29,694 nucleotides of DNA, taken from positions 1-29,694 of the IMG/VR virus record IMGVR_UViG_3300044647_002181, one strand, 5' to 3'. Shown here piece by piece: positions 1 through 27,856 of the stretch. This DNA comes from a virus. The notes under the pieces were generated by a model that was not told the DNA's origin, searched no databases, and worked only from the letters and a program-made list of their open reading frames with translations. How positions within the stretch are numbered: position 1 is the stretch's first letter; each line of letters starts with the position of its first letter. Both the position numbers and the translations under genes were made by a program.

Positions 1-117
1 ATCATTTAGTACCGTGACAGTCTCAGACGGTACTGTAGTTTCGTCGTTTAATCCTGAAGATATTGATTGGGTTTCTGCAGTTACATCAATAGAAAATGAA
101 TTGTTTTCTTCATTCAT
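1..117 (-). CDS. N-terminus of an unidentified protein, cut by window edge (tape-measure candidate)
   Basis: Only the first 39 codons are in the window, reading leftward from ATG at 117 and still open at base 1. The start overlaps the stop of the preceding short ORF as ATGA (117-114), which is typical translational coupling and supports the start. The visible residues are polar and acidic, rich in Ser, Thr, Glu and Asn, with no motif I recognise. In long-tailed phages the gene immediately after a frameshifted tail-assembly-chaperone pair is usually the tape-measure protein, so that role is an inference from position only; another baseplate hub component is equally possible. Confidence 0.6.
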   Translation of the reverse strand, partial: MNEENNSFSIDVTAETQSISSGLNDETTVPSETVTVLND

Positions 118-323
118 AAATTAAAATATCCTTCGGATTGTATGCTACTCATTTGTTGCTCTTGCTTCTTTTTTTCTTGATATTCTATGACTAGTTTTAA
201 ATATATGTCTCTTTCCCAGTAAATCATGTTTTCGATATCACTAAGAGACCATGAAAAATTATTTATTAGGGTAAAGTTTGTAATGAAATAATCTCTTAGA
301 TCAAAAAACTTTACCGATAAGTA
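114..323 (-). CDS. Short -1 frame ORF after gp26, probably made as a gp26 frameshift fusion (gp51-like position)
   Basis: Reading leftward in the -1 frame relative to gp26, 69 codons are open from the slippery run at 329-323 to a TGA at 116-114. The product begins YLSVKFFDLRDYF, then has an aromatic region (NNFSWSLSDIENMIYW) and a charged Glu/Lys/Gln tail. The frame is open back to about 353 but has no ATG, GTG or TTG before codon 33, so the apparently folded first half cannot be reached by ordinary initiation. Slippage at T TTT TTT would yield a 286-residue gp26 fusion. Its stop overlaps the next start as ATGA. In T4 gene 51, a hub assembly factor, adjoins gene 26; the analogy to gp51 is by position, while the frameshift architecture resembles the tail assembly chaperones of lambda (gpG/gpGT) and P2/Mu. 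Confidence 0.65.
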   Translation of the reverse strand, partial: YLSVKFFDLRDYFITNFTLINNFSWSLSDIENMIYWERDIYLKLVIEYQEKKKQEQQMSSIQSEGYFNL

Positions 324-973
324 AAAAAATTTAGTAAACCACTTACCTCCTTTTCACCATCTTTTGATGGTAATGAAAGATAAAGTTCGGGTTGTTTTTT
401 CCAAAATAATTCTAACTTTGAAATTGTATTCAACGGTAGATTGTTTATCAATTCTTTGATTTCATTCGTTACAAATTTATTGAGATTATATATTTCTCCA
501 CGCACAATAATTTTTTCTATGCATGCTTTATATAAATCATCTTTATTTAAAGAATCAATTTGCAATAATTTTTTAACGGATGGTGTACTTAAAACTAAAG
601 TAACATCACTTCCTATACTTATTTGTTCTTCTATAAAAGAATTTCTTCCTTTAATTTCTGATATGTTGACTTGTATTTTTTCTTCTTTATACATTAAGTT
701 TAATACTTCGTCAACACTTTTAGATCTTATTTGTAAAAATAAGTATTCTGCATCAGGTAAGCATAAATCTTCTATATTTGTATTTTTAGAACAACTTTTT
801 AAAAGATCTACCATTGCTTTTAAAGCAAGTTTTTTATTATTTTCTTGAAGTATTATTGTTAAAGTTTTTGCATCCTTTACTTTAAAAGGAGTAAAACTTA
901 CTAATTGATTAGAAAATGGAAGAACAGTTTCGTACTCTGGTAAAAGATTATTTAAAGATTCAAGTATATTCAT
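311..973 (-). CDS. gp26: Baseplate hub protein, T4 gp26-like
   Basis: This 220-residue protein fits the T4 gp26 baseplate hub family (T4 gp26 has 208 residues), known for building the central hub. The N-terminal part (ETVLPFSNQLVSFTPFKVKD) and the following helix-rich segment are family-like: a short beta region then a region that sets the length of chemoreceptor-like helices. The gene starts 3 nt after the stop of the tail-tube-fold gene in the same leftward operon. Its 3' end carries a T7 run (329-323) after an internal Shine-Dalgarno-like AAGGAGG (352-346), and a -1 shift there extends the protein by 69 residues. The unshifted protein ends TYR. The identification is from overall pattern, operon position and size, not from a catalytic motif. 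Confidence 0.7.
   Translation of the reverse strand: MNILESLNNLLPEYETVLPFSNQLVSFTPFKVKDAKTLTIILQENNKKLALKAMVDLLKSCSKNTNIEDLCLPDAEYLFLQIRSKSVDEVLNLMYKEEKIQVNISEIKGRNSFIEEQISIGSDVTLVLSTPSVKKLLQIDSLNKDDLYKACIEKIIVRGEIYNLNKFVTNEIKELINNLPLNTISKLELFWKKQPELYLSLPSKDGEKEVSGLLNFFTYR
321..352 (-). promoter_or_regulatory. Candidate programmed -1 frameshift site with upstream SD-like stimulator
   Basis: On the minus strand the gp26 codons CTA AAT TTT TTT ACT place a perfect T TTT TTT heptamer at 329-323, where both Phe anticodons can re-pair after a one-base backward slip. AAGGAGG, a strong Shine-Dalgarno sequence with no start codon in a useful frame after it, lies at 352-346, 16 nt before the heptamer. 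In E. coli dnaX an internal Shine-Dalgarno about 10 nt upstream stimulates -1 shifting, so the spacing here is somewhat long. I did not find an obvious strong downstream stem. Confidence 0.6.
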
Positions 974-976
974 AGT

Positions 977-1537
977 TTAAGTTATTGTAAAGTCTCTATA
1001 GTTCATCAATACTTGGTATGTCATAAACTCATTTGGTTTTGCCATAGCCAATTCAAAAGGAAGATTTTCAACGGGATAAACTTCATAGAAAGTAAATGTT
1101 TTATTTACATTTCCGTTTGGATCTAACATATTTACTTTCATTGTGCTATTATAAACTACACTATCGTAAAAATTTGTCACATATGGTGCGCTATAATTAC
1201 CAGTAATACGACCACCAGAATGTATTAAATTAAACCAACGATTAAAAAAATCTATAATAAAATTATCATTTGTCATTGGAAAAACTAAAAATACTCCTCC
1301 AACAAATTTTTGATATCTTGGGACAATTCTTCCAGGACCATATCCTGCTAAATTATCTGCAATACCATCTATAGCTCTAGAACCCATTGCAACAGCTGCA
1401 CACTTAAAATCATCTGGAGGAATTGTATTGATTGCTGAAGGTAAATTGTAAAACGACACACTAAATCGGTTACTTCTTTGAAGTCCGTTGTGCCTAGAGA
1501 AAAAATCTTTAATTGTAAGTATTGAATTATTGCTCAT
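977..1537 (-). CDS. Tail-tube-fold protein, candidate tube initiator (gp54/gp19 superfamily)
   Basis: From ATG at 1537 the protein has 186 residues. Its N-terminus (SILTIKDFFSRHNGLQRSN then RFSVSFYNLP) has the layout of T4 gp19/gp54 proteins: a short helix, a basic N-R-F motif, then a beta strand. The C-terminal half ends in strands around NKTFTFYEVYPVENLPFELA, again tube-like. A longer reading from 1621 is possible but overlaps the upstream gene by 95 nt; the 1537 start has AAAGAGA about 9 nt upstream and only an 11-nt overlap, so I prefer it. Because it sits with gp4 and gp26 rather than next to the sheath, a role at the baseplate-tube junction like gp54 is plausible, but a second tube or terminator protein cannot be excluded. 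Confidence 0.6.
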   Translation of the reverse strand: MSNNSILTIKDFFSRHNGLQRSNRFSVSFYNLPSAINTIPPDDFKCAAVAMGSRAIDGIADNLAGYGPGRIVPRYQKFVGGVFLVFPMTNDNFIIDFFNRWFNLIHSGGRITGNYSAPYVTNFYDSVVYNSTMKVNMLDPNGNVNKTFTFYEVYPVENLPFELAMAKPNEFMTYQVLMNYRDFTIT

Positions 1538-1949
1538 TGGCGAATATCTCTTTTTCTGTAATAATTTTGAATTCCATGTTGTTTTGATCGCAATATCTCT
1601 TTGCTGCTTCCCATTTAGCACTATTAATAATCCAAGTAATTTTTTCTTTCTTGGATGCGTTTTCTTTTAAGTATGTTTGTTTTTTTGGTTTTATTTCTAC
1701 CATCCAAGTTTGAATTCCCGAATCATTTTTAAATTGTATTAAAAAATCTGGAAAATAATTGTGTTGTTTCTTGTCTAATGGATTTATATAAGGAATTATT
1801 ACTTCTTCAAAGGACCATTTAACTATATTTTCTGTCTGATCACAAAATTTACATATATTCCTTTCCCATAAAGAACGGCATATAATTTTTTCTGGATCTC
1901 CTATATACTTCTTTTTATTTTCTGGAATAAATCTAGTCTTATATGCCAT
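1527..1949 (-). CDS. gp4: Head completion protein, gp4-like TnsA-type nuclease fold
   Basis: This 140-residue protein matches the T4 gp4 (gp50) head-completion family, which acts on the packaged head before tail joining and has the TnsA endonuclease fold. The likely metal-site residues are visible in order: Glu in RSLWERN near residue 29, Asp in NYFPDFLIQF near 68, and Glu-x-Lys in MVEIKPKK near 83-87, the classic E...D...ExK pattern of restriction-type nucleases. Two Cys in ICKFC near 32-35 are notable. It is the first gene of the leftward unit; a CCTAAATA late-promoter-like octamer (1962-1955) ends 5 nt before its ATG with no Shine-Dalgarno between. The next gene overlaps its end by 11 nt. 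Confidence 0.8.
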   Translation of the reverse strand: MAYKTRFIPENKKKYIGDPEKIICRSLWERNICKFCDQTENIVKWSFEEVIIPYINPLDKKQHNYFPDFLIQFKNDSGIQTWMVEIKPKKQTYLKENASKKEKITWIINSAKWEAAKRYCDQNNMEFKIITEKEIFANEQ

Positions 1950-2810: not shown

Positions 2811-3641
2811 ATGAAATATTTTGATAATCTTCCCCAAAAAAGTTTTGAAACAACAATCGGATCATTTGTGATAAGTGATTTTTTTACTTATTTGGACGCA
2901 ACCTCTTCAAACTTTGTAACAAATGATGTTATCGTTGATAAAAAATCTACTCTTTTAGAAATTTCTCATTTACTTTATTCAGATCCAAATTCGTTCTGGT
3001 CTTTAGTTACAGCAAATAATACTATAAATCCATTCACACTTTCTAATGTGAACACAGAAATTTTTGAAATTGAATATCAAGATAAAATAAATCTTCAATT
3101 ATCTGGTAATTCTCTTGGCACAACTGGATATGTATTTCCTGCTGGTAGCATTATTGCGCCATTTAAATCAAATACAGGTGGTTCATACAATTATACATCA
3201 GTTGGAAATTTTGATTTAAATGGGCCTCTTTCTGTTATAGAAAGTGTTTCATATTATGATGGAAATATGATAATCAAAGATCAAACAGGAGCTACATATT
3301 CATTTATAGCACCTTCGGGAGCAACATTATCTGTTGTGATAATGTATCCAGTCCAAGGTGGGACCTATGCAATAGAAAAACCTTATTTCACAACAAACAC
3401 TAAAAAAGCTTTAGATACAATTGTTAGAACTAAAAAACCTTCTGAAGGTAAAGTTGAAATATCAGAAGAAAAAAGCATTTACATTAAAGAGTGGCAGGAA
3501 GTGCCTGCTCCATTAATAACAGACGGAACTGAAGTAACTCTCTTAACTCAAGTAGAACAAACTAACAAAAACATTAAATCATACAGTTCTAGTGATTTAG
3601 GAGCTTTGAGAAGTTATTTTGTGACCACTAAATATAATTAA
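2811..3641 (+). CDS. gp53: Baseplate wedge protein, gp53-like
   Basis: I start this gene at ATG 2811, one base after the gp48 stop; an upstream in-frame ATG at 2724 would overlap gp48 by 86 nt. The 276-residue product shows the gp53/LysM-like wedge signature in its first 110 residues: YFDNLP at the N-terminus, then TLLEISHLLYSDPNSFWSL followed by VTANNTINPF, matching the T4 gp53 region in which a small 'YGNP..YW..L..N' unit folds like LysM. T4 gp53 (196 residues) joins neighbouring wedges into the hexagonal baseplate. The remaining 160 residues are strand- and Gly-rich and are not recognised; they may be an inserted domain. The next gene begins 2 nt after its stop. Confidence 0.65.
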   Translation: MKYFDNLPQKSFETTIGSFVISDFFTYLDATSSNFVTNDVIVDKKSTLLEISHLLYSDPNSFWSLVTANNTINPFTLSNVNTEIFEIEYQDKINLQLSGNSLGTTGYVFPAGSIIAPFKSNTGGSYNYTSVGNFDLNGPLSVIESVSYYDGNMIIKDQTGATYSFIAPSGATLSVVIMYPVQGGTYAIEKPYFTTNTKKALDTIVRTKKPSEGKVEISEEKSIYIKEWQEVPAPLITDGTEVTLLTQVEQTNKNIKSYSSSDLGALRSYFVTTKYN

Positions 3642-3642
3642 G

Positions 3643-5607
3643 ATGGCTAATACACAGAAGGATTTTAATCCAGCTTATTCTACTATAAAAGCAATATATC
3701 TAGCAAACGATGCTGGTATTTTAGGTTCTGGTGATGGAGCAGAAAAGCTTAATATAATTCGTCAAAACACAGAATGTGTTTTTGAAAAAATTGAATTTGT
3801 AGAAAATATAAATGATGTTTTGCCTAATGGCGTATTGGTTGTCAAAGACACTAAAGATATTGCATCACGTTTAAGAGTTTTTAAAATTAATAAAATTGTA
3901 GTTGAATTTTTTAATCAAAGAACTTGGAATCTTGATATAACAAGTGTCAGTTATTTAAACAACGCTGCTTCTGATACTGAAGAAAATTTTGTTGGAATAT
4001 ATTTTAGTAATGAATATTATAGAAAAGTACAAGAAATTTCATTAAATCAAAAGTTAGGTTTTAAAAAACCACAAGTAGCAGTTATTAGCGATTTTATTGA
4101 TTATGTGAAAGCAAATATTTTTGATATTTATGTCGATGATCGAAATTATGGTTTTACTGATAAAACATCAAATTATGTTTTATATAGACCAATAAATTCA
4201 ATTGATTGTAGATTGGAAGCTGTCTCGGATAATCCATTAACATATTTGAATTATTTGGCAACATATGCAACTGATGATGTAAATCAAAATCCTCATTACT
4301 TTTTTTGGACACAATTTGATGGATCATTAAATTTTAAATATTTTCATAATGATTTAAGAAAAGACAAAACATTTCAAACATTGGATCAAGATTATAGATG
4401 TTTTGCAGTTTATGATGGTGATTCAGTTCTTCAAAAAATTTCAGTATCTAAAAATACAGGAAAATATTTTAGAAAATGTTATTTCTTAAATACAAATCCA
4501 GCATATCAATATATTTCTAAAAACTATTACTATATAAGAAAAACACCAAAATTTTTAGATGTTTTAACTCCGGGACTTACAGGAGAAGCTGCATATAAAG
4601 AAATTTATTCTGGATTAAATTATCAGTTTCAAGATGAAGGGCAAAAATATTATATCGAAGCTATAAATCATGGTAATTCTGGATCAATTATTCCCGGCTC
4701 TCAACAACTTTTTTATGATAATCACTGGGGCTATTATGATGGTCTAGAATCTACAAATGGTACATCAGATTTAACTCATATGGGTCAAAAATTTGGCACA
4801 GATAAATCATTTGGTAAATTGAATTTAATGGGGTTGACAGGATTTATGCCATATGTTGATGATTCTGAAATGTGGAAAAATGCTTTTGATTTAACCCCAG
4901 TTCATCCTAATTATAGCGGTTATGGTACAAATCCTGGCTCAACATCTGGACCAAATACTAAACTACAAAAAATTATTGATATTAGATATAATAATTTTAT
5001 TAATTCAATTGGTTTGACTGGTGATAAGTATCTGGAAAAAATACGTGAAATAGAATTGCAAAATTTTATTATGTATTCATTATGTTGTATGGGAAGTGGA
5101 GATCATTGTTTTTTTGCTGTATTGACTAAATTTGAAGTCGATAATAATTCAAAAGATGGTGTAAATTCAAATGGTAAAAAATACCGTTATGAATGGAATA
5201 AAATTAAATTTGATAGTCCTTATGGGTCTACAGGTCCAATAGGTGCTTGTGGTTATACTGGTGCGACATATTATATACATGAATTGGAACGCTGGCATCT
5301 TGATGACTTAAAATCATCAACATTTCAAGATGAAAGTTGGGCAATAAATTTGAATGAACGTGGATTGAGTGCTGATTATTTACCACAGGGATGGGCCACA
5401 CCAATACCACCTGGATTTAAACTTAGACCAATAGGAGCAAAAACACCTGTTTTAGGAACAGGAGGCTCCATATACCATGTTGTAAAATTATGTAGAATGC
5501 CGATTGATGAATTATTGGTTGAAAGCAATAATAAAGTATATCCAAATTATCTTGGAAAATATTTGTATTATTTTGAAGCTGAGAATGCCTTAGATGGAAC
5601 ATGTTAA
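3643..5607 (+). CDS. Baseplate central hub, N-terminal and middle domains (gp27-like)
   Basis: The 654-residue product has the layout of phage hub proteins of the T4 gp27 / P2 gpD / Mu gp44 type: an N-terminal tube-like barrel (residues about 15-95, with a typical strand-turn pattern ending RVFKINKIVVEFF), then a helical-plus-strand region where DNPLTYLNYLATYA and HYFFWTQFDGSLNFKYF resemble the gp27 segment with 'FVFVW.D..G.N'. The gp27 C-terminal barrel is missing here and appears instead in the next gene, so the hub is split. Around residue 527 there are four collagen-like Gly-X-Y triplets (GPIGACGYTGAT). The gene is far longer than T4 gp27 (391 residues), as in other environmental T4-like phages with large hubs. 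It lies between gp53 and gp25 genes. Confidence 0.6.
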   Translation: MANTQKDFNPAYSTIKAIYLANDAGILGSGDGAEKLNIIRQNTECVFEKIEFVENINDVLPNGVLVVKDTKDIASRLRVFKINKIVVEFFNQRTWNLDITSVSYLNNAASDTEENFVGIYFSNEYYRKVQEISLNQKLGFKKPQVAVISDFIDYVKANIFDIYVDDRNYGFTDKTSNYVLYRPINSIDCRLEAVSDNPLTYLNYLATYATDDVNQNPHYFFWTQFDGSLNFKYFHNDLRKDKTFQTLDQDYRCFAVYDGDSVLQKISVSKNTGKYFRKCYFLNTNPAYQYISKNYYYIRKTPKFLDVLTPGLTGEAAYKEIYSGLNYQFQDEGQKYYIEAINHGNSGSIIPGSQQLFYDNHWGYYDGLESTNGTSDLTHMGQKFGTDKSFGKLNLMGLTGFMPYVDDSEMWKNAFDLTPVHPNYSGYGTNPGSTSGPNTKLQKIIDIRYNNFINSIGLTGDKYLEKIREIELQNFIMYSLCCMGSGDHCFFAVLTKFEVDNNSKDGVNSNGKKYRYEWNKIKFDSPYGSTGPIGACGYTGATYYIHELERWHLDDLKSSTFQDESWAINLNERGLSADYLPQGWATPIPPGFKLRPIGAKTPVLGTGGSIYHVVKLCRMPIDELLVESNNKVYPNYLGKYLYYFEAENALDGTC

Positions 5608-26396: not shown

Positions 26397-27170
26397 ATGC
26401 CTTTAGAAATAGAAGGAACCGATCCCTGTTGGGTTGATTTACATAAAAAACTTTTGGTTGAAAGACCGGATTTATGTAATAAAGAAATATATTTAACGGT
26501 TAATTATATAAATTTTAAAGAAAATAAAAAAAATATTTTATGGATTCATGAATCACCTGGATTATTTCCCGATTTAATCGAACATATAAAAGTTCATTCA
26601 AACACTTTTATAGAAAATAATACAACAGTTTATACTTGTGTTGAAGATTTATTTTATTTACCTTTTGTAAAAAAAATACACCCATCATTTTCTTCATGGA
26701 TTAAAAATCCAATTTTCATGCCAACAAAAACTAAATTAGTAAGTATGATATCTTCTTCTAAAAATTTTATAAAAGGTCATGCAATTAGACATGCAATTAT
26801 AAACCAATTACCATACTGTATAGATTTATATGGAATGGGATTTAATTATATTGATGATAAAAAAGATGGACTTGTAGATTATTGTTTTTCTGTAGCAATA
26901 GAAAATGATGATACAAATTTGTATTTTACAGAAAAACTTTTAGATTGTTTTTTGACATGTACAATCCCAATTTATTGGGGAGCACCCAAAATTGGAAATA
27001 TTTTTGATTCTAATGGAATTATATTTTTAAATAATCCACAAGATATTTGCAATCTTACATACACAGATTATATTAGTAAGATAAAATCAGTTGAACAAAA
27101 CTATTATACCGCATTAGAAAATAATATAAGTCCTTTTACATCTTTAATAAAAATTTTGGAAAAAAATTGA
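26397..27170 (+). CDS. Alpha-1,3-fucosyltransferase-type enzyme (GT10)
   Basis: The 257-residue product has the conserved GT10 C-terminal donor-binding block at 163-199: SVAIENDDTNLYFTEKLLDC and TIPIYWGAPKIG, equivalent to the 'FENS...DYVTEK...G.VPVYWG' of bacterial alpha-1,3/4-fucosyltransferases. The N-terminal part (NILWIHESPGLFPDLIEH; LVSMISSSKNFIKGHAIRHA) is GT-B-like with a short acceptor domain. It directly abuts the preceding stop (TAA ATG). Coding here is very AT-rich (15 of 60 G+C at 26521-26580). GT10 specificity for fucose is typical, but related GDP-sugar donors cannot be excluded. Confidence 0.82.
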   Translation: MPLEIEGTDPCWVDLHKKLLVERPDLCNKEIYLTVNYINFKENKKNILWIHESPGLFPDLIEHIKVHSNTFIENNTTVYTCVEDLFYLPFVKKIHPSFSSWIKNPIFMPTKTKLVSMISSSKNFIKGHAIRHAIINQLPYCIDLYGMGFNYIDDKKDGLVDYCFSVAIENDDTNLYFTEKLLDCFLTCTIPIYWGAPKIGNIFDSNGIIFLNNPQDICNLTYTDYISKIKSVEQNYYTALENNISPFTSLIKILEKN

Positions 27171-27856
27171 GTAAAATTTCTGTAGCAATTCCTGTTTATG
27201 AAGCCCATGGAAGTGGTTGGCTTTATTTATCCGAATTATTAAACAGTATTTGGAAACAAACAGAAAAAGATGTAGAAATTGTCATTAGCGATCAAAGTTT
27301 AGATCAAAATATAAAAAATATTTGTGATTATTATTCTTCTTTTTTAAATTTAAAATATGTCTGTGGAAGACATTTAAAAAGAAGTAATTCACCAAATGCA
27401 AACAATGCAATAAAAAACTGTTCATCTGAAATAATCAAAGTAATATTTCAAGATGATTTTTTTGTAATGGAAAACGCATTACAAGAAATAATAAAAGCAT
27501 TCGAATCCAATACAGTCAATTGGCTGGTTTCCGGATGCTTTCATTGTTCAAACATACACTTCTTACAAAGACCTTTTTTACCATCTTATAATGAAAACAT
27601 TATAAGAGGTATAAATACAATTAGTTCCCCAAGTGTATTATCTTTTAGAGGTAAACATTATTTTGATGATTGTTTAATAATGATGATGGATTGTGATATG
27701 TATACAAATTTATATAAACTATATGGCGACCCATTTATATTAAATGATTGTCAAATTTGTAATAGAATACATCCAAATCAATTACAAAATTTATCAAAAG
27801 ATGTGACTGAAAAAGAGATTGAATATTGTTTAAACAAATATAAGGATATAAAATGA
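27167..27856 (+). CDS. GT2-type (GT-A) glycosyltransferase with TTG start
   Basis: The 229-residue product opens with ISVAIPVYEAHGSGWLYLSE and has the GT2 nucleotide-binding strand pattern EIVISDQSLDQN (about 37-48) and the metal-binding acidic cluster VIFQDDFFV (92-100, QDD in place of DxD). The C-terminal acceptor region is short and ends after a run of Lys/Glu-rich residues. The only start that keeps the first beta strand is TTG 27167, overlapping the GT10 stop as TTGA, with GGAAAA upstream. The last codons overlap the next gene by 4 nt. Confidence 0.8.
   Translation: MSKISVAIPVYEAHGSGWLYLSELLNSIWKQTEKDVEIVISDQSLDQNIKNICDYYSSFLNLKYVCGRHLKRSNSPNANNAIKNCSSEIIKVIFQDDFFVMENALQEIIKAFESNTVNWLVSGCFHCSNIHFLQRPFLPSYNENIIRGINTISSPSVLSFRGKHYFDDCLIMMMDCDMYTNLYKLYGDPFILNDCQICNRIHPNQLQNLSKDVTEKEIEYCLNKYKDIK

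Follow-up and report, generated by a model that had tools for sequence, protein, structure and literature searches.

A conserved gp26/gp51 cassette of T4-like phages with a dnaX-like signal predicted to direct -1 frameshifting

The tail-assembly chaperone genes of T4-like phages were reportedly identified by Vladimirov, Gautam and Davidson in 2022, in a work whose title is said to argue for a mechanism other than frameshifting. A 2016 review holds G-T frameshifting to be widely conserved in the long-tailed phages, with T4 as the exception (PMC5009743). Two later papers that cite Vladimirov 2022 bear on the T4-like phages: one states that some of these phages have a short and a long copy in place of frameshifting (PMC10885494), and the other that the TAC-N genes of T4-like phages are known to contain slippery sites of the poly-T kind (PMC12846349). 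For bacterial -1 frameshift signals, the published description calls for a Shine-Dalgarno (SD)-like element 6–17 nt before the second base of the slippery motif, together with a hairpin that begins 4–10 nt after the motif and is closed by a G-C pair (PMC4066793). The principle is known, then, and this apparently includes poly-T frameshifting in T4-like chaperone genes; the novelty here lies in this lineage, in the complete signal and in how it is conserved. We found no literature report of gp26/gp51 frameshifting specific to cyanophages or pelagiphages, and no report of an SD-like element with a hairpin for the gp26/gp51 family, the 2022 work being represented in our search through the papers that cite it.

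The stretch of DNA considered here ("the window") is the whole of IMG/VR virus record IMGVR_UViG_3300044647_002181, a 29.7 kb contig (29,694 bases) that carries T4-like head and tail genes, namely portal, major head protein, terminase and baseplate parts. The features on which the discussion turns are the following.

Positions 977 to 1621, minus strand: tail tube family gene directly upstream of gp26 (phrog_45, 9e-16); context only.
Positions 311 to 973, minus strand: gp26 ORF of 220 aa, encoding the short product (TAC-N).
Positions 345 to 352, minus strand: SD-like candidate stimulator AAGGAGGT, inside gp26, its AAGGAGG ending 16 nt before the heptamer.
Positions 323 to 329, minus strand: slippery heptamer T TTT TTT, on invariant Phe-Phe codons.
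Positions 311 to 313, minus strand: zero-frame stop of gp26, TAA, read directly from the sequence and lying within the 5' arm of the hairpin.
Positions 306 to 315, minus strand: predicted hairpin 5' arm GGTAAAGTTT.
Positions 270 to 279, minus strand: predicted hairpin 3' arm AAACTTTACC, placed by the fold, the recoding test, covariation and the stem survey.
Positions 114 to 323, minus strand: -1 frame extension of 69 codons plus TGA, a gp51-type domain that would form the C-terminal part of TAC-NC.
Positions 1 to 117, minus strand: start of the next ORF, from ORF reading; context only.

The 3' end of gp26 reads ...CTA AAT TTT TTT ACT TAT CGG TAA, in which the run at 329-323, taken in the gp26 frame, is T TTT TTT and fits X XXY YYZ. 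From there the -1 frame stays open to the TGA at 116-114, which overlaps the ATG of the next ORF at 117-115 (ATGA). Of ATG, GTG and TTG, the first to occur in that open frame is an ATG lying 102 nt from the heptamer start, so that 32 residues of the extension precede it. An earlier, sequence-only reading of this DNA had pointed to the heptamer, to the length and end of the open frame and to the missing start codon, and in all three respects direct reading agrees with it.

We consider it very probable, on the strength of the sequence comparisons below, that programmed -1 frameshifting makes a short and a long tail-assembly chaperone from gp26 and the -1 segment. Most ribosomes would complete the 220-aa gp26. 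At U UUU UUU, where tRNA-Phe occupies the P and A sites alike, a minority would slip back one base and read 69 more codons, giving a 286-aa gp26-gp51 fusion (TAC-NC), with slippage probably aided by the upstream AAGGAGG and by the hairpin downstream, in the layout of dnaX and IS911. The peptide spanning the gp26 FF into the -1 frame would be, in the window, EVSGLLNFFYLSVK.

How much of this layout might arise by chance can be gauged from the window itself. Slippery heptamers of similar type are frequent in this AT-rich DNA (32% GC), and for that reason we judge the heptamer by itself to be weak evidence. The TTTTTTT of gp26 is nevertheless the window's only one near a gene end with a long open -1 frame after it, an open frame of 69 codons arises in 0.1% of composition shuffles, and AAGGAGG occurs a single time when both strands are scanned. 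What we regard as decisive for the proposed cassette is its conservation across relatives. Elsewhere in the window, a glycosyltransferase-10-like gene on the plus strand (26397-27170) has an in-frame A AAA AAT at 27161-27170, 7 nt ahead of its stop, and reading on in the -1 frame leads into a glycosyltransferase-2-like gene (27167-27856) whose TTG start overlaps the upstream stop; this overlap is probably ordinary translational coupling, a second frameshift fusion being possible.

Of 155 related loci, 154 have the in-frame heptamer, T TTT TTT or T TTT TTC, together with its -1 extension. It is present in all 53 viral-contig relatives, whose gp26 proteins are 47–100% identical to that of the window, and at eight named-phage loci (P-TIM68, HTVC008M, P-SSM2, Cr30, pf16, KVP40, phiM19 and S-CAM7), and every one of these 53 and 8 loci that is not cut by a contig end has an open, conserved -1 frame. 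A further 94 loci add 93 with the heptamer, 84 of them reading T TTT TTC and 9 T TTT TTT. Comparison of relatives, which the sequence-only reading had proposed, has in this way come out on the side of its cassette, and most of the close relatives are without a usable separate start for the extension. The sole exception is L146, a close relative of pelagiphage HTVC008M whose gp26 is interrupted well upstream by a premature stop, perhaps through an error of assembly.

The extension carries conserved FFYLSVKFFDL...WERE/D motifs, and among 22 sequences of the window group its -1 frame has pS 0.64 and pN 0.21, the other two frames being without such a signature; these substitutions indicate purifying selection on the extension, confined to its -1 frame. 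These results bear on the reading in which a single gene has been split by a homopolymer indel, through sequencing error or decay. Homopolymers do invite sequencing errors, and the window is a contig of uncultured origin, but the same frame relation recurs throughout the 154 loci, finished phage genomes among them, and the extension is selected as protein. Sequencing error and pseudogene were both rejected on conservation, and we assign the split-gene reading practically no chance of being correct.

A search of 2.9 million contigs points the same way. The DNA pattern used specified nothing beyond the SD element, the heptamer and two conserved positions lying between them. It found 88 stretches, of which 79 were read, and every one of the 79 has the gp51 domain encoded in its -1 frame; 62 of the 79 were absent from the earlier sequence set, 34 of the 62 being distinct. 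The specificity of the pattern derives in part from conserved gp26 coding sequence, and we take the search as support for the cassette rather than proof.

The SD-like element itself shows a marked codon preference. Its glutamate codon is GAG in 37 of 38 distinct sequences, as against 15% gene-wide, and the preceding codon, where it encodes lysine, is AAG in 28 of 29, again as against 15%. The single exception (L053) has GGAGGG a few bases nearer the heptamer, at about the cyanophage spacing; in the cyanophages the element is TTG GAG GG, roughly 11 nt from the heptamer. The sequence-only reading had located AAGGAGG correctly, 16 nt upstream, and had described it as having no use as a start signal. 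There is in the window no -1 frame start codon able to use it; we read AAGGAGG as a conserved candidate frameshift stimulator rather than as an unused start signal.

Downstream, the window folds into a hairpin that starts 7 nt after the heptamer, with a G-C closing pair and a predicted stability of -12.6 kcal/mol (z -3.5). Each native sequence was compared with 1000 synonymous recodings that leave the product of the -1 frame unchanged; 33 of 43 distinct sequences were more stable than their recodings (p<0.05; mean z -2.6), with z values of -3.6 for the window, -5.3 for P-SSM2 and -4.5 for Cr30. In a 17-sequence alignment all 153 cells pair, three pairs having changed on both sides in compensatory fashion; the covariation score was not reached by any slid or shuffled version, although, as the sequences were preselected for fold and the shuffles keep relatedness, this is not to be read as a probability. 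The complete 9-bp stem is present in 52 of 71 distinct sequences.

A sister group (L025, L028-L032, L034, L035, L037, L040-L046, L049-L051 and L053) retains the 5' arm but pairs it with another 3' arm lying much closer (TCGGTAAGAT with ATCTTACCGA), which leaves a loop of 6 nt as against 28. By its predicted pairing, this is a partner switch that preserves the stem. The alignment of this near stem (A3) barely varies and gave no covariation. A convincing hairpin is absent from at least six distinct sequences, and the hairpin is on that account not indispensable. The loci L026, L033, L036, L038, L039, L048 and L052 keep the heptamer and GAGGT, without a stable downstream hairpin.

Taken together by their layout, SD-like element, heptamer and hairpin constitute a putative -1 frameshift signal of the dnaX/IS911 kind. 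The spacings in the window and the G-C closing pair fall within the published bacterial description (PMC4066793), the SD-like element lying at the far edge of the tested 6–17 nt range. E. coli dnaX and IS911 share with this locus a heptamer, an upstream SD-like element, a downstream hairpin and matching spacings (PMC4066793); they differ in gene and in having A AAA AAG where the present heptamer is U-rich, and stimulation here is predicted. A nearer parallel in motif is phage Adele (Vandenendeviridae / Andersonviridae), for which PMC12846349 describes a poly-T -1 site at the end of TAC-N, with the downstream segment mis-annotated as a separate gene; Adele belongs to other phage families and uses the motif GTTTTT.

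The composition of the signal also bears on whether the shift would take place in transcription. RNA polymerase might slip on the T7 run, giving a mixed mRNA pool in which messages with an extra U specify the long product, and the seven T's in an AT-rich context would suit such a process. The cyanophage relatives, however, mostly have six T's followed by C (84 of 93), and a conserved SD-like element and hairpin are elements that act on ribosomes. We regard transcriptional slippage as very improbable, and ribosomal frameshifting as the preferred reading.

The identity of the two protein parts strengthens the case. In profile searches gp26 matches PF12322 (5e-29) and phrog_150 (3e-27), while the extension alone matches phrog_634, the baseplate hub assembly catalyst, that is gp51 (3e-16). 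The virtual fusion of 286 aa gives one continuous phrog_150 match over profile positions 12-277 of 282, scoring 117 bits vs 97 for gp26 alone; T4 gp51 likewise matches this profile over its whole length. The fold model of gp26 is good (pLDDT 88); it found no match in the PDB at E<=0.001, where the library may lack a relevant structure, and its matches in a viral library are T4-type baseplate hub/gp26 proteins. The extension is predicted with moderate confidence to be helical.

In T4 itself, phrog_150/PF12322 takes in both gp26, of 208 aa and on the minus strand, and gp51, of 249 aa and on the plus strand; the phrog_634 domain is found in gp51 (1e-23) but not in gp26. T4 gp51 consists, in other words, of a gp26-like part and a gp51 domain in a single frame, the same fusion that frameshifting would give here, and because of this the fusion is the expected product. 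What T4 makes as a short and a long chaperone from two separate genes on opposite strands would here be the work of a single gene containing a -1 frameshift site. With T4 gp51 as query, 1339 phage records were found, and 1226 with T4 gp26, mostly of enterobacterial, Acinetobacter and Aeromonas phages. One record labelled "Staphylococcus phage SAJK-IND" (GenBank MG010123.1, 24584-25207) contains a T4 gp26 that is 98.6% identical to that of T4, which suggests a mislabelled or contaminated record.

The extension as query found 527 public records, in which a separate gp51 or a hypothetical protein is commonly annotated under the match. The annotation of cyanophage genomes in GenBank assumes that the gp51 domain is a separate small protein (~57 aa), whose translation would begin at a start of its own through coupling or reinitiation once gp26 has terminated. 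In cyanophages such as P-SSM2 there is an ATG right after the gp26 stop, near the start of the gp51 domain, and a separate gp51 is annotated. Yet the P-SSM2 ATG sits in the hairpin, and in two cyanophages checked (L055 and L057) the ATG is too far from GGAGGG for Shine-Dalgarno use. Conservation, moreover, reaches upstream of the cyanophage ATG to the Phe-Phe slip site, the first possible start in the window falls within the gp51 domain, and T4 makes the gp26-like and gp51 parts in fused form. We consider a separately started gp51 unlikely, though less so than either transcriptional slippage or a split gene, and continue to favor the frameshift fusion.

The analogy with lambda gpG/gpGT, which the sequence-only reading had drawn for a gp26/51 pair, is supported by the gp51-family extension and by the fusion in T4. 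As in lambda, a -1 extension branches off close to the end of the gene for a short chaperone, and a tail tube family gene lies directly upstream. By that analogy the common N-terminal part would hold the tape measure protein, while the C-terminal part would recruit tail tube subunits. The heptamer is a different one, however, and the tape measure gene is not next here; the likeness drawn is one of layout. The same reading had cited the common position of such genes just before the tape measure gene, and for this lineage that detail is wrong, the next gene being a small ORF. In L001 it occupies 3219-3752 (window 1-117 and beyond) and encodes 177 aa of no known family, the relatives' ORFs at that place being mostly 110-204 aa; in L001 and L012 the gene beyond the small ORF is gp32, in the opposite orientation. 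Relatives among the cyanophages, the pelagiphages and the phages of Caulobacter, Pseudomonas and Vibrio have a gene of 480-690 aa, either next to the cassette or separated from it by one small ORF; two records, HTVC008M and Cr30, annotate this gene as tape measure. A 654-aa gene at 3643-5607 was considered as the tape measure; it has no family match, and its sequence is not characteristic.

For the T4-like phages at large, we think it reasonably likely that a single gene with a dnaX-like, doubly stimulated frameshift signal yields both chaperones in most members outside the T4 group proper, which include pelagiphages, cyanophages of marine and fresh waters, and phages infecting Vibrio, Caulobacter and other hosts. 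On that view T4, with its two genes, would be the exceptional case, and the hundreds of gp51 genes now annotated separately would not stand for proteins of their own. The proposed frameshift arrangement is conserved in the T4-like group at large, T4 having two genes instead, and it would provide a precise rule for the re-annotation of gp26/gp51 in several hundred phage records. The same loci lend themselves to comparative study, by alignment, of how frameshifting may be tuned by an SD-like element and an arm-switching hairpin.
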